Source: a virus. From it: a stretch of DNA of 39,188 bases. The stretch spans positions 1-39,188 of IMG/VR virus record IMGVR_UViG_3300005613_000178. One strand, written 5' to 3'. The notes under the pieces were generated by a model that saw only the letters and a list, made by a program, of their open reading frames with translations, was not told the DNA's origin and searched no databases. This document shows positions 1 to 39,188 of the stretch, piece by piece (the stretch's first letter is position 1; every line of letters begins with the position of its first letter). The translations under genes and the position numbers were made by a program.

Positions 1-120
1 GCCACCGGAACCGTCACCGCCACCGGAACCGCCACCGTAACCGCCACCGTCACCGTAACCGGAACCGTAACCGTAACCGGAACCGGAACCGTAACCGGAA
101 CCGTCACCGTCACCGTCACC
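1..120. repeat. Hexanucleotide array, left segment (20 units)
   Basis: There are twenty uninterrupted 6-base units of the form CCG-N-N-A on the plus strand. The words used are CCGGAA, CCGTAA, CCGTCA and CCGCCA; CCGTTA, common in the right arrays, is absent here. Read on the minus strand, each unit is a Gly codon followed by TCC, TAC, GAC or GGC. It has the same orientation and phase logic as the arrays at 38594-38866 and 38911-39188. Confidence 0.95.
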
Positions 121-144
121 GTTACTACTTTTTATTTCCTCCAT
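1..144 (-). CDS. Gly-X repeat protein, N-terminal part (runs off window)
   Basis: The ATG at 144 opens with MEEIKSSN and continues as 40 residues of strict Gly-X, with X being Asp, Ser, Tyr or Gly. The start overlaps the end of the upstream 120-residue gene (stop at 132-134). An AGGGGG ribosome-binding site lies about 7 bases before the ATG, so this start looks real and translationally coupled. There are no hydrophobic segments or Cys; the product would be a flexible, Gly-rich, acidic/tyrosine chain. No family is recognised. The frame is open to base 1. If the window ends join directly, it continues in frame from 39188 to a TAG at 38904-38906, giving about 142 residues. Function unknown. Confidence 0.6.
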   Translation of the reverse strand, partial: MEEIKSSNGDGDGDGSGYGSGSGYGYGSGYGDGGGYGGGSGGGDGSGG

Positions 145-1511: not shown

Positions 1512-1817
1512 TTATCCCTTATTAAATGGATTTGCTTCCCTAACACGCGCAGAACGCGCCTCAGAATTCTTTAAAGCGGTTTCAGTGCGTATGCCGAACG
1601 TGTGTTTACTGAGATACTTGACCGGAACCCAGCAATCATACCAAACTGTTTTACCCTGTGAGTCAGTGTTCTCTTTTAGGGCAATAAGCTTACTCCTGCC
1701 ACCGATCCGCTTACATACTTTATTAAAGTGATCAGCTTTAGACGTTCCAAATCGGAAAAAGCCCTCGGAGCGATCCTGGTCACCAATAGTTAGAATTGTC
1801 TCGTGTTCACTCCGCAT
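1512..1817 (-). CDS. Hypothetical protein between bet and gp157 (101 aa)
   Basis: A small alpha/beta protein with a conserved-looking core: ETILTIGDQDRSEGFFRF (about 6-23), WYDCWVPVKYLS (about 59-70) and a basic tail. Its 5' end overlaps the 3' end of the Bet-like gene by 11 bases, implying coupled translation. Small proteins of comparable layout are common beside phage recombinase genes, but I do not recognise a named domain. A role connected with recombination is only a neighbourhood inference. Confidence 0.65.
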   Translation of the reverse strand: MRSEHETILTIGDQDRSEGFFRFGTSKADHFNKVCKRIGGRSKLIALKENTDSQGKTVWYDCWVPVKYLSKHTFGIRTETALKNSEARSARVREANPFNKG

Positions 1818-2619
1818 CGGCTACCTCTATAAATTGATATTTTTCAAACGCTTGAATGCGTTCAGCAGAACACCAACAGCCAGCGTCTTTATCAGCTATG
1901 CAGCCGAGGTCCTTAGCCGTCTTGTGTAGCTCTACAGCTTCCGCCGAATCAACGTTGGGCCAAGCGTACCTAAACGCCGTTCCGTTTTTCATAGCAGCGC
2001 GAGACTTTCTCTGTTGATCTTTCAACTGCTCTTCATACACCTTTCGTTCCTCCGACCCTTCCGGCGGTTCGGCGACGATACAGGCTCCGCTCGGCCGTTC
2101 CTTTGATTCGCCATAATCAGACGGCATTTCCTCAGTTGTATATAACCCATTTAATTCTTGGGGAAAAGCCTTTCTAAGCGCCATTGATTCGGCACACTTT
2201 AGGAGCATAACCCGTGGCATAGATTTCCAGTTGCCATAGTTTTTCCCGTACTCAACCAGATACGCTTCAGCCGTCGAAGGAAACCGCCGATCTTTTCGCC
2301 ACACTTTGGCGCGAGCAAGCTTAAGTTTATCCCCTTCAAGCTCAATCTCCGTTTCGGTTCCATCGTACATTGGGTGAGCATTGGCAATCTGATAAAAGCC
2401 ATTAATGCCCGTCATCATCTGTAGCGGACCGCCGCGTTCAGGCTTGATAAACCAAATTTCTTTTTTGTACGGATTTAGGCCGGTCGACTTACAATACTCA
2501 ATAAACACTGAAAATTCCGCTTCTGTTGCTCCGGCGGCAACGGTATTTTTTAGCTTTTTAAGCGTCTCCGCGTTATATGTAAGCCCGGTCTGCTGTATTG
2601 TTGGTAGATTTTTTGACAT
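1807..2619 (-). CDS. bet: Bet/RecT-family single-strand annealing protein
   Basis: A 270-residue protein with the Bet/RecT annealing domain at about 10-165. Diagnostic segments are EAEFSVFIEYCKSTGLNPYK, QMMTGINGFYQIAN and PRVMLLKCAESMALRKAFP, followed by LNGLYTTEEM. These proteins bind single-stranded DNA and anneal complementary strands in phage recombination and recombination-dependent replication. The C-terminal 100 residues are charged and poorly conserved, with a Cys-containing end. No RecE/lambda Exo-type exonuclease gene is adjacent; the only nuclease-like gene nearby is on the other operon (6339). GAGGGGA precedes the ATG. The gene overlaps its neighbours on both sides. Confidence 0.92.
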   Translation of the reverse strand: MSKNLPTIQQTGLTYNAETLKKLKNTVAAGATEAEFSVFIEYCKSTGLNPYKKEIWFIKPERGGPLQMMTGINGFYQIANAHPMYDGTETEIELEGDKLKLARAKVWRKDRRFPSTAEAYLVEYGKNYGNWKSMPRVMLLKCAESMALRKAFPQELNGLYTTEEMPSDYGESKERPSGACIVAEPPEGSEERKVYEEQLKDQQRKSRAAMKNGTAFRYAWPNVDSAEAVELHKTAKDLGCIADKDAGCWCSAERIQAFEKYQFIEVADAE

Positions 2620-3723: not shown

Positions 3724-3936
3724 ATGGTGTTTTATTCCAACATAGAATTAGCAGAATACCTTGGGTGTTCCCCATCTGCGATCACGCGCTGGCTCGCAAA
3801 GGGATTACCTCATGATTTTGATGGATTTAGGTACGTATATAAGTTAGACTCGGTTCTCGATTGGCTTGTTACGCAATCACCCCGCCTTCAAAGGTGGGTT
3901 AATTCGATTGCTAACAGGCCCGCCGATGGTAGATGA
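3724..3936 (+). CDS. Small helix-turn-helix DNA-binding protein
   Basis: A 70-residue protein whose segment YSNIELAEYLGCSPSAITRW (about 4-23) has the spacing of a helix-turn-helix of the excisionase/MerR-like or phage-regulator type. A wing-like part follows (DFDGFRYVYKLDSVLDWL). AAGGA lies about 8 bases upstream. As the first gene of the rightward operon, directly after the divergent promoter, it may regulate that switch; this is inference. Confidence 0.7.
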   Translation: MVFYSNIELAEYLGCSPSAITRWLAKGLPHDFDGFRYVYKLDSVLDWLVTQSPRLQRWVNSIANRPADGR

Positions 3937-4675
3937 TCCCGGCTCATACATTCTACTATTCAGAAAATTTCGCGACTGGCAGTGGTATACTGACACCAAC
4001 ACAAAAGCCCTCTTCCTACACTTCCTTATCGCCGCCAATTATAAAACAACATTTTGGAGAGAGGAAACCATTGAGAGGGGCCAGCTACTAACCGGCCTCA
4101 ATTTACTACATACGCAAACGGGTTTAAGCGTGCAATCGATCCGCACTTCACTAAAAAAATTAGAAAAAACCGGAGAAATCAAGCGTCGAGCAACAAACGA
4201 GTTTTCGATAATAACTATCTGTAATTATGAAAAATATCACGGCGAAAATTCGGGGGCTAACAAGCAGATCAACAAACGAGCAACAAACGAGCAACAAACG
4301 ACTAACAAACGACTAACAACATCTAATACCCTTAATACCCCTGATACCCCTAAAGCCCCTAAGAAGAAAAGGCGGGTTTTTGATCCATCGGGAAAAAAGA
4401 AGTATTTCGATCATGTATATTTAGATGAGAAACAACTGGAGAGCGTCAAACAGTATTACCAAAAGAAGGGCCTAACGTGGGCAGACTGTCAGGAAGCTAT
4501 GCGCGAACTCGACCGGTGGTTTGACGATAATCCGAACAAGCGTAAAACGCGGGTTGATGACGCTAAGGCGCTTAAGGGCTGGCCCCTCGACAAAGCGATA
4601 CGGCGCAAAAAAGATATGTTGCAACTAGAGCGGCAAGAAATGTATAATTATCAAGCAGGGAGGAAAAAAATATGA
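3926..4675 (+). CDS. Replication initiator, DnaD/replisome-organiser-like
   Basis: A 249-residue protein. Residues about 15-105 form a winged-helix region of phage replication proteins: DTNTKALFLHFLIAANYK, ERGQLLTGLNLLHTQTGLS, SIRTSLKKLEKTGEI and ITICNYEKYH. A low-complexity linker (about 110-150, Asn/Thr/Lys/Pro-rich) follows, then a conserved C-terminal helical domain (LDEKQLESVKQYYQKKG to LKGWPLDKAIRRKK). In related phages such proteins bind the origin and recruit the host helicase. The ATG at 3926 is chosen because it overlaps the preceding stop by 11 bases; an upstream ATG at 3866 lies deep inside the previous gene. The linker is encoded by tandem repeats that could be the origin. Confidence 0.82.
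   Translation: MVDDPGSYILLFRKFRDWQWYTDTNTKALFLHFLIAANYKTTFWREETIERGQLLTGLNLLHTQTGLSVQSIRTSLKKLEKTGEIKRRATNEFSIITICNYEKYHGENSGANKQINKRATNEQQTTNKRLTTSNTLNTPDTPKAPKKKRRVFDPSGKKKYFDHVYLDEKQLESVKQYYQKKGLTWADCQEAMRELDRWFDDNPNKRKTRVDDAKALKGWPLDKAIRRKKDMLQLERQEMYNYQAGRKKI
4270..4320 (+). repeat. Iteron-like 11-base repeats, candidate origin
   Basis: Tandem 11-mers inside the replication gene: CAACAAACGAG at 4270 and 4281, CAACAAACGAC at 4292, TAACAAACGAC at 4303 and a partial at 4314. A further exact copy stands alone at 4191-4201. Directly downstream, 4324-4359 holds four 9-mers of the type TAATACCCC. Iterons inside an initiator gene are the arrangement of lambda O, so an origin here is plausible. 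They could also simply encode a repetitive linker. Confidence 0.5.
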
Positions 4676-10096: not shown

Positions 10097-11004
10097 GCAT
10101 CTATTTTAGCCGCCCCCAGGACTTATCCGGCTATGTGCCATATACCGGGGCTACCGCCGATGTTGATATTGGCTCACAGCGGTATTTTGGTAGAGGTTAT
10201 TTGGCCATTGACGACGCCGTCCCGGCATTTAGCGCCTATGACTCCACATATACGTGGGGTTTCGATTTTTATGCCACACCAACAAATGGTGTGTTTGCGG
10301 GCACCGGTGGCTTAATATTTCAAACCGCCACAAACCCTATAGTTGAATTTAGCAGCTCCGTTGCCGGCCAGGAAAACGGCATACAATTTGAGTCAAACGG
10401 TTGGGACGGTCAGTTAATATTTAAATACGACAACCCTCTAGGGCGAAGGCGTTTTGATTTCAGTCATGATGTTGATATTACCGGTGACATTCTGGCTTCT
10501 GGTACTGGCACCTTTGGCGGCGGCGGAGCTGGTCAATCAGCAATTCAAAGCGGCCTGGTAGTTAATGAGGCAGGCGGTGCGACGGGAGACGACGACTTTA
10601 GGGCGGAGACCAATACCAACGCAAGCGCGCTTGTAGTTGATGCATCGGCGGAGGAAGTAAAGATAGGTGCGGAGCTGGTATACACGCCTTCCGCCACTCA
10701 GAGCATAACGGCTACTTCAGATGCAATCTCAGCTAATGCTACAATGATAGTGCTTAATCCATCGTCTAATTTAACCCTAGTATCCACACCAACAATCGCC
10801 AATGGTACCACTGGACAGATACTTTATATCACCTGCGGTAATGCAGAGGTCAATACGGTTACCCTACAAGATCAGGATACGCTTGCCAGTAGTAACCTAC
10901 AGCTAGGCGGCGCAACTCGCAGCATAAAGGGCAGGGATGTTTTACAACTTTTATTTGACGGAACCAACTGGCTAGAGGTTTCGTATTCGCAAAATAGCAA
11001 CTAA
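10093..11004 (+). CDS. Fibre-like virion protein
   Basis: A 303-residue protein. The N-terminal segment VPYTGATADVDIGSQ (about 15-29) is a motif recurrent in phage fibre and baseplate proteins. The middle segment VVNEAGGATGDDDFRAETNT and VVDASAEEVKIG (about 154-195) is another virion signature. The C-terminus is a beta-rich region (about 200-300) resembling the adhesin-like repeats that end with LLFDGTNWLEVSY. No catalytic motif is visible. A fibre or head-fibre role is inferred; the exact location on the virion is unknown. Confidence 0.75.
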   Translation: MSIYFSRPQDLSGYVPYTGATADVDIGSQRYFGRGYLAIDDAVPAFSAYDSTYTWGFDFYATPTNGVFAGTGGLIFQTATNPIVEFSSSVAGQENGIQFESNGWDGQLIFKYDNPLGRRRFDFSHDVDITGDILASGTGTFGGGGAGQSAIQSGLVVNEAGGATGDDDFRAETNTNASALVVDASAEEVKIGAELVYTPSATQSITATSDAISANATMIVLNPSSNLTLVSTPTIANGTTGQILYITCGNAEVNTVTLQDQDTLASSNLQLGGATRSIKGRDVLQLLFDGTNWLEVSYSQNSN

Positions 11005-11531
11005 TGGGCACCAGAAAAGAGTCATCAATATACGAGTTTGAAAACGGGCTAAACGTAGAAGACGGTTGCACAACGATCCGTAAGGATGGGAGTAATAATC
11101 TTGAGTTTTATGATTCAGTAACCGGCACTAAAACATTAGCGGACGTGTCGGCAGCGGACGTTGTGGGGCCGGGTTCTTCAACTAATAACACAGTGGTGCG
11201 CTGGGACGGCGCGGCGGGCACTGCCATACAGGGTAGTAATGTAACGATAGATGATTCCGGTAATATGGGTGTTCCGGGAGGTGTTTCCTCATGCGGTAGC
11301 GTTTATGGTTATAGCGGCGTATCATCGGGCGACTATATGTGTGCCCCTTATGATATTTGTTCGAGTTCTGGCAGTATATGTGCCTACTGTAATGTTTATG
11401 CAAGTTGTGGCTGTGTGTGTGCTTACTACGGGTTTTACTGTAGTGGTTATGGCGGCGGTACGAATAGTTTTTTAACCGGTGATGGTAGGACGGCGTATTT
11501 TTGTGGTGGTATATTTTATTATGCATGTTAA
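11004..11531 (+). CDS. Short fibre protein with Cys/Tyr-rich repeat tip
   Basis: A 175-residue protein. The N-terminal half contains the fibre motif VVGPGSSTNNTVVRWDGAAG and SNVTIDDSGNMG (about 53-89), a well-known sequence of phage fibre shafts. From residue 96 to the end composition changes abruptly: Cys, Tyr, Gly and Ser dominate, with 11 Cys and about 13 Tyr in 80 residues and a loose 6-7 residue period (for example SGSICAY, CNVYASC, GCVCAYY). In typical fibres this region would be Gly/Ser/Asn/Thr repeats. The gene overlaps its neighbour (TAATG). It could be a disulfide- or metal-stabilised beta-helix or receptor tip. Confidence 0.75.
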   Translation: MGTRKESSIYEFENGLNVEDGCTTIRKDGSNNLEFYDSVTGTKTLADVSAADVVGPGSSTNNTVVRWDGAAGTAIQGSNVTIDDSGNMGVPGGVSSCGSVYGYSGVSSGDYMCAPYDICSSSGSICAYCNVYASCGCVCAYYGFYCSGYGGGTNSFLTGDGRTAYFCGGIFYYAC

Positions 11532-38572: not shown

Positions 38573-38596
38573 TCCCTATCGGCATCCTTACTAACC
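38573..38596 (-). repeat. Spacer module, copy 3 (partial)
   Basis: This segment matches 38886-38909, offset by 313 bases. It contains the sequence that reads SKDADR in the Val-Thr frame. The match stops just before the gene-start part seen in copies 1 and 2. It marks the inner edge of the array. Confidence 0.85.
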
Positions 38597-38900
38597 GGAA
38601 CCGTTACCGGAACCGGAACCGTTACCGTAACCGTCACCGGAACCGTAACCGTTACCGGAACCGTTACCGTAACCGTAACCGGAACCGTAACCGGAACCGT
38701 CACCGTCACCGGAACCGCCACCGTAACCGTCACCGTCACCGTCACCGGAACCGTAACCGTAACCGTAACCGGAACCGTAACCGGAACCGTCACCGTTACC
38801 GTAACCGTTACCGTTACCGTTACCGTAACCGTAACCGTTACCGTTACCGTAACCGTTACCGGAACCGTTACTACTTTTTATTTCCTCCCTATCGGCATCC
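38591..38900 (-). pseudogene. Start-less Gly-X copy in inner array
   Basis: The frame reads REEIKSSN followed by about 45 Gly-X pairs, ending GSG and TAG at 38591-38593. It is identical in opening to the gene at 144, except that the start codon is AGG instead of ATG. No other start codon of the Gly-X frame is upstream before a stop. It can be read only as the end of a Val-Thr frame that passes through the spacer (SKDADREEIKSSN), giving a 193-residue open frame from GTG 39172. Confidence 0.5.
38594..38866. repeat. Hexanucleotide array, inner right segment (about 45 units)
   Basis: About 45 units composed only of CCGGAA, CCGTTA, CCGTAA, CCGTCA and one CCGCCA. Minus-strand frames: Gly-X and Val-Thr/Pro/Ala are open through the whole segment; the third contains stops. 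The plus strand also stays open as Arg-Asn/Tyr/His. Together with the spacer it forms a unit of about 313 bases. Confidence 0.95.
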
Positions 38901-38910
38901 TTACTAACCG
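38867..38910 (-). repeat. Spacer module, copy 2 (start codon changed)
   Basis: The first 31 bases are 30/31 identical to 121-151; the remainder matches 38573-38596. On the minus strand it links the Val frame (VSKDADR) with the Gly-X frame (EEIKSSNG) because the hexamer phase changes across it. It also carries the TAG (38904-38906) that ends the outer Gly-X frame. Confidence 0.9.
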
Positions 38911-39188
38911 GAACCGTAACCGTAACCGTAACCGTCACCGTAACCGTTACCGTCACCGTCACCGTAACCGTTACCGGAACCGGAACCGTAACCGTTACCG
39001 GAACCGGAACCGTAACCGTAACCGTCACCGTAACCGTTACCGTCACCGTCACCGTAACCGTTACCGGAACCGTAACCGGAACCGTCACCGTCACCGGAAC
39101 CGGAACCGTCACCGGAACCGGAACCGTAAACGTAACCGGAACAGCAACCGAAACCGTTACCGGAAACGACACCGCAACCGTTCCGGGA
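38904..39188 (-). CDS. Gly-X repeat protein, C-terminal part (runs off window)
   Basis: The Gly-X frame enters at the right end and is open to TAG 38904-38906, about 94 residues. The first 23 residues near the window edge are degenerate (several Cys, Val, Phe and Arg in place of Gly or the usual X); the rest is regular Gly-X with X being Asn, Asp, Ser or Tyr. It is in frame with the gene starting at 144 if base 39188 is followed by base 1. No independent start is visible. Confidence 0.45.
   Translation of the reverse strand, partial: SRNGCGVVSGNGFGCCSGYVYGSGSGDGSGSGDGDGSGYGSGNGYGDGDGNGYGDGYGYGSGSGNGYGSGSGNGYGDGDGNGYGDGYGYGYGSG
38911..39188. repeat. Hexanucleotide array, outer right segment (about 46 units)
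   Basis: Regular to about 39128, then several units deviate (for example ACGTAA, CAGCAA, CCGAAA and CCGCAA). It includes a higher-order repeat of at least 62 identical bases (38921-38982 and 39011-39072) at a 90-base offset, i.e. 15 hexamers, which shows block duplication. Confidence 0.93.

Follow-up and report, generated by a model that had tools for sequence, protein, structure and literature searches.

We identified a pair of overlapping phage genes, of which the first encodes a DUF6948 protein and the second a strict (Gly-X)n protein, i.e., glycine alternating with one of a few other residues. The pair lies across the two ends of the window, by which we mean the whole 39,188-bp IMG/VR contig analysed here, and recurs in phages of unrelated hosts. 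The two genes almost certainly constitute a functional, coupled module. Within the open-licence literature searched the module as a whole appears to be undescribed, and its parts have known analogues. The sequence-only reading of this DNA knew of no described phage system with this arrangement; our search of that literature likewise found no description of one, nothing relevant on the gene pair, and no paper naming DUF6948. Term searches in papers on the Pectobacterium and Barba phages turned up neither this gene nor any reference to its glycines or repeats. DUF6948, a Pfam domain for which the sources used record no function, can now be given a predicted fold and a partner that is almost always present.

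The arrays at the two ends of the contig

Read on the minus strand, the repeat at the right contig end is GGT-NNC, i.e., Gly-X, with X encoded by TCC (Ser), AAC (Asn), TAC (Tyr), GAC (Asp) and, rarely, GGC (Gly). This agrees with the five-word hexamer array of the sequence-only reading, which had taken it as coding for alternating glycines on that strand. TRF reported 99 copies of the 6-bp unit at 38592-39181. The same reading had counted more than 100 units made of the five words. We found 87 GGTNNC units between 38594 and 39188, of which 83 are one of these words, and 100 is exceeded only by adding the 20 further units at the left end of the contig (window 1-120). The repeat is also not a single array, as had been assumed, but consists of two arrays that each end in a TAG codon (A and B), with a 27-bp linker between them, and of a third piece, at 1-144, that carries the real start (Table 1). 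The earlier description was thus right about the coding array and missed the DUF6948 partner, its overlap with the array start, the part of the array at the other contig end and the tandem duplication.

Table 1. Features of the window related to the Gly-X gene and its operon.
Feature	Coordinates	Strand	Remarks
5' part of (Gly-X)n gene (MEEIKSSN, then ~20 Gly-X units)	1..144	-	ATG at 144-142, modal position, 10 nt before DUF6948 stop; leaves via left contig end
DUF6948 gene, 120 aa	132..494	-	Pfam PF22253 E 7e-31; AF2 pLDDT 96.8; 3' end (GVPIWRK*) overlaps array start
RecT/Bet-like ssDNA annealing protein	1807..2619	-	phrog_2780 E 1.2e-37; upstream in same leftward operon
Next operon gene, 73 aa	38364..38585	-	Start sequence repeated in linker
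Array A, second (Gly-X)n copy, ~45 units	38591..38876	-	TAG at 38591-38593
Linker, 27 bp	38877..38903	-	Hybrid of following gene's start and DUF6948/array junction
Array B, 3' part of (Gly-X)n gene	38904..39188	-	TAG at 38904-38906; comes in from right contig end

Each end of the contig falls within the array, and the minus-strand genes there can be read together as a single leftward operon. Such arrays break short-read assemblies, and the contig was probably cut at this point because assemblers cannot cross the repeat. The register of array B is broken over its last ~70 bp (39119-39188), which looks like a poor contig end. In the linker, the ATG of the duplicated gene became AGG (ATATGG to ATAGGG), and array A has no ATG, GTG or TTG start in the Gly-X frame. 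The 198-aa open reading frame at 38591-39187 is a frame chimera, which follows a Val-Thr frame in B and the Gly-X frame in A. The 73-aa gene that follows array A matched no family.

The layout of two arrays at the right end, as distinct from the array itself, might be an assembly error, given that both contig ends fall within the array, that the right edge is degraded and that array A lacks a start codon. We consider this rather unlikely. The two sequences joined at the junction have only a short stretch of homology in common, and bridging it would not be easy for a k-mer assembler; moreover, two other loci (L266 and L268) encode at least three complete tandem Gly-X genes each, with junctions built like the linker of the window. 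Tandem duplication therefore seems to be a natural habit of this locus.

Association with DUF6948 and genomic context

The gene that overlaps the array start is a clear member of DUF6948 (106.6 bits; the curated Pfam cut-off is 27), whereas its Gly-X partner falls outside the families of Pfam, PHROGs and NCBIfam as searched. We scanned viral contigs for the pattern twice and collected 119 sequences, the window among them, whose mixed Gly-X arrays total 3346 units. Arrays of this kind thus recur in more than 100 viral contigs, which is more than chance. By clustering, DUF6948 was upstream in 86 of these loci, and 22 of the 32 loci lacking it have less than 200 bp of upstream DNA. When the two variable bases were left unrestricted in a contrast scan, DUF6948 preceded 34 of the 37 usable arrays with at least three words and only two of the 50 one-word microsatellites. 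We also sampled in the reverse direction, collecting relatives of DUF6948 from phage records, viral contigs and genome contigs with no requirement for an array: of the 55 loci, 53 are followed by a Gly-X run. The two exceptions are L294, which has a short degraded version, and L301, which is a truncated match. Synonymous changes exceed non-synonymous ones in the DUF6948 genes.

The start codon of the Gly-X gene lies within or at the end of DUF6948 in 145 of 157 pairs. The most common start, found in 62 pairs and in the window, is an ATG placed 10 nt before the DUF6948 stop, where it is formed by the base preceding the C-terminal Trp codon and the first two bases of that codon (..GTA TGG..). 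Of 129 genes, 90 have A as this preceding base, a bias that is absent from the third positions of their other Val codons (A in 314 of 1464). A motif resembling a Shine-Dalgarno sequence was present just upstream of the Gly-X start in only 75 of 129 ends, and the sequence evidence for ribosome binding at this start is moderate. Two loci (L114 and L145) encode natural in-frame fusions of DUF6948 and Gly-X.

The frame offset between DUF6948 and the array is nearly constant, and we therefore considered a programmed frameshift from one into the other. We found no common slippery sequence by eye, and an ATG or GTG is usual in the overlap, which favours an independent, coupled start.

The window belongs to a tailed phage (it encodes terminase, portal and tape measure genes) for which megablast searches of 14-30 kb against phages gave no close relatives. 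The pair occurs in cultured phages of Pectobacterium and Dickeya, in Iodobacter phage PhiPLPE, Vibrio phage IKEMa6-1, Chlorobiaceae phage CV-1-33 and Rhodobacter phage RcapNL, and in the Barba phages of Rheinheimera; the function of the pair is thus directly testable in culturable phages. It was also found on a Monoglobus plasmid record and in contigs assigned, by MAG binning as given, to Clostridia, Treponema, Bacteroidales, Verrucomicrobia and others. In Neisseria gonorrhoeae (L311, NZ_CP119142.1, 1151053-1154298), DUF6948 is present at three places, and the one that we read has a GN/GS/GD/GY array. This 2.17-Mb record is filed under plasmids and is probably a chromosome. Two divergent subfamilies of DUF6948 had no match in named phages, and a third had 119.

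Inspection of the clustered neighbours revealed ERF, a YqaJ-type exonuclease, SSB, helicases and a methyltransferase, and the records themselves annotate RecE, Bet, Erf and SSB; the window has a RecT/Bet-like gene in the same operon (Table 1). By these annotations, the module is shown to sit among early replication and recombination genes.

Public records misread or miss the Gly-X gene, which is translated in the wrong frame (MAMAMAL..), named 'lamprin' or left unannotated; examples are L239 (Chlorobiaceae phage CV-1-33), L302 (MW202613.1) and L240 (Iodobacter phage PhiPLPE). Elsewhere in the window, the open reading frame at 3866-4675 (plus strand) looks like a replication initiator. At 4270-4319 it contains an 11-bp repeat, CAACAAACGAC, in ~4.5 copies; these may be iterons of an origin located within the initiator gene, as in lambda O. 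In the structural region, a 175-aa protein (11004-11531, plus strand) has a C-terminal half rich in Cys, Tyr, Gly and Ser.

Turnover and composition of the arrays

The sequence-only reading had suggested a hypervariable protein of changing length, and proposed to measure unit-number variation. A comparison of existing isolate genomes bears this out in cultured phages with identical flanks. The Pectobacterium phages Ymer and Amona share 100% identity in the DUF6948 gene and over 600 bp of downstream sequence; nevertheless, the Gly-X protein has 73 and 67 residues, respectively, with the units in a different order (53 to 89 residues in relatives). Seven Rheinheimera Barba phages have identical flanks (318 bp upstream and 400 bp downstream); the differences among their arrays are an added TAC-GGC unit, which occurs at two independent sites, and a single exchange of Tyr and Asn. 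These comparisons indicate that the length and order of the array evolve faster than the flanking DNA. Such changes of whole units do not look like the adenine mutagenesis of a diversity-generating retroelement. The rapid change in unit number resembles that of phase-variable contingency loci, which had been put forward as an explanation. However, gain or loss of a 6-bp unit never shifts the frame: the isolates differ by whole units with the frame kept, so that length and order change instead of an on/off state, unlike at a locus where unit gain or loss switches the reading frame or a promoter.

We then compared the codon registers of the arrays, defined by the glycine codon and the third base of X. 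The arrays of the pattern scans fall into GGT-C (46), GGC-C (41), GGC-T (22), GGG-C (5), GGT-T (3), GGA-T (1) and GGA-C (1), and the glycine codon and X third base are ~95% uniform within one array. In arrays of at least 20 units, the first two positions of X have entropies of 0.96 and 0.92 bits, and the two synonymous positions only 0.16 and 0.19 bits. Whatever the register, X is mainly Tyr, Ser or Asp, with some Asn or Phe. Since the second pattern scan favoured Tyr, Ser, Asp and Ala words, the set seeded with DUF6948 is the fairer sample; there, X is Ser in 370, Tyr in 365, Asp in 294, Asn in 56 and Phe in 37 of 1237 units. Ala accounts for only 14 of the 3346 units of the pattern-scan arrays. 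The arrays are acidic and nearly devoid of Lys and Arg, and the common words TCC, GAC, AAC, TTC, TGC and CAC are each one base away from TAC.

The simplest reading of these patterns is a fast, homogenising turnover of units combined with selection, at the level of the protein, for a mixture of Tyr, Ser and Asp. Because the arrays change by gain, loss and recombination of hexamers, only this composition, in alternation with glycine, and a rough length would be under selection. That the array plays its role as a protein is, in our judgement, nearly beyond doubt, since the same amino acids are encoded in different codon registers. A structural or cis-acting DNA element, as the earlier reading had also allowed, would fit the strict DNA periodicity within each phage, but the hexamers vary from phage to phage and the amino acids do not, and we hardly give it any credit. 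It had further been argued that the words were chosen to keep two frames open. Yet, GGT NNC and GTN NCG are free of stops for any NN, so the two open frames follow automatically and are no evidence of selection. A neutral or selfish microsatellite, open by accident, would account for the uniform words inside arrays and the slippage-like changes of single units. It is nevertheless very improbable: X is limited to Tyr, Ser, Asp and Asn in every register, one-word arrays lack the DUF6948 gene that accompanies arrays of three or more words, the overlapping start is conserved, and the array is kept in nearly all of the loci seeded with DUF6948. The arrays thus offer a natural experiment on low-complexity proteins, in which order and length drift between near-identical phages at constant composition and the same Gly-X protein is rebuilt in different codon registers.

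Fold of DUF6948 and possible roles of the module

The AlphaFold2 model of DUF6948, made with 77 natural sequences, has a pLDDT of 96.8. Its matches in the PDB by Foldseek are almost all Sm/LSm proteins (probability ~1.00), with a best E-value of 4.7e-3, and the best Z score by VIA is 7.0, under the value of 8 that marks a firm match. As the E-value is above 0.001 and the Z score below 8, the similarity may reflect a common small barrel. The Sm fold is a small five-stranded barrel with an N-terminal helix, and the modelled core of DUF6948 lacks this helix. The sequence profile of the 77 proteins retrieved no Sm chain from the PDB up to E = 1, leaving the family outside the Sm1/Sm2 profile; a loose G-x-L-x-x-x-D-like stretch can be seen by eye only. 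The median pI is 7.6, i.e., not strongly basic. On the strength of the model we regard an Sm-like fold as fairly probable, and we do not file DUF6948 as a member of the Sm family.

The best overall explanation of the module, which we hold tentatively, is an Sm/Hfq-like protein with an acidic, glycine-rich tail. The DUF6948 barrel would bind nucleic acid, probably RNA, as an oligomer of the Hfq/Sm type, and the overlap between the Gly-X start and the 3' end of DUF6948 would couple the translation of the two proteins. The acidic chain of Gly with Tyr, Ser or Asp would be the separately encoded low-complexity tail of DUF6948. Most tails are indeed separate proteins, with fusions at only two loci; from the pairing, the coupling and these fusions we infer that the two proteins associate physically. 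Early in infection, the tail might then tune the nucleic acid bound by the barrel, compete for it or concentrate it, in the manner of the glycine-rich or acidic tails at the C terminus of Hfq. By this analogy, an Hfq-like nucleoprotein function with the tail in trans, early in infection, is conceivable at about the same tentative level or slightly below it. A more specific version, in which the Sm-like protein and the acidic polymer assemble a nucleoprotein condensate or protect phage RNA or single-stranded DNA, is on the doubtful side.

There are analogues of such an architecture. The eukaryotic SmD1 and SmD3 combine an Sm fold with tails of Gly-Arg dipeptides, and thus share with the module a strict Gly-X tail. 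However, their X is Arg, which makes the tails basic, whereas X in phages is acidic, aromatic or polar, and they belong to a different domain of life. The Hfq of Acinetobacter, whose C-terminal domain carries GGFGGQ repeats, similarly joins a small Sm-type barrel to a repetitive, glycine-rich, acidic tail of low complexity, and in A. baumannii the number of repeats in this tail affects RNA binding, autoregulation and fitness (PMC11617691). We take this as an analogy that falls short of proof. The Hfq tail is fused to a host regulator and of the GGFGGQ type, whereas Gly-X is strict, hypervariable, phage-borne and usually encoded by a separate overlapping gene, and at the sequence level no relationship of DUF6948 with Sm proteins is detectable.

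The main rival is that Gly-X acts early as a decoy or inhibitor directed at the host, e.g., at a defence sensor or a host enzyme, with its variation reflecting an arms race and DUF6948 serving as carrier or chaperone. The very fast change of the array beside identical flanks would suit such a role, as would the early-gene neighbourhood, and the C-terminal domain that follows the array in ~17 loci is also found after leucine-rich repeats, a typical binding scaffold. We nevertheless think it unlikely, as the palette of X is nearly constant across phages of unrelated hosts, which is odd for a host-specific target, and the turnover of short units suffices by itself to explain the speed. The regular glycines invite a further comparison with structural or adhesive polymers, such as a silk-like beta-sheet or a disordered fibre, located either on virions or inside infected cells. 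The heavy chain of silk fibroin is a (Gly-X)n, Ala-rich secreted fibre, in which Gly also alternates strictly with residues that include Ser and Tyr, and one phage copy is annotated as 'lamprin'. Yet, Gly-X proteins nearly lack Ala, the main silk residue, and thereby the Ala/Ser composition of silk, they are rich in Asp, and in the window and most annotated records their neighbours are early replication and recombination genes instead of tail genes, which points to an intracellular product. Phages also encode collagen-like proteins, with (Gly-X-Y)n repeats that are likewise glycine-periodic, of low complexity and variable in length. These differ from Gly-X in having a period of three instead of two, and Gly-X has almost no Pro or Ala and belongs to an early gene pair, not to a tail fibre. 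We consider a structural polymer improbable, more so than a decoy.

In the condensate or protection version of the Sm/Hfq-like explanation, phages of many bacterial phyla and a Neisseria prophage sequence would share this early module, with the order of the units free and fast-changing and their composition held by selection.

Some Gly-X proteins extend beyond the array. A conserved domain of ~147 aa (WHxxLTGSCxxGRxxF) follows it in ~17 loci, including L079, L134, L214, L297 and L298; in L139 and L292 this domain comes after leucine-rich repeats. This domain had no match in Pfam, NCBIfam or PHROG, and its model (pLDDT 91) gave no convincing fold match in the PDB. A second, different C-terminal domain (..ALHGTHNPKAWKGERWWIVGLY..), also without a family match in Pfam, NCBIfam or PHROG, follows the array in five loci (L003, L031, L112, L169 and L200).
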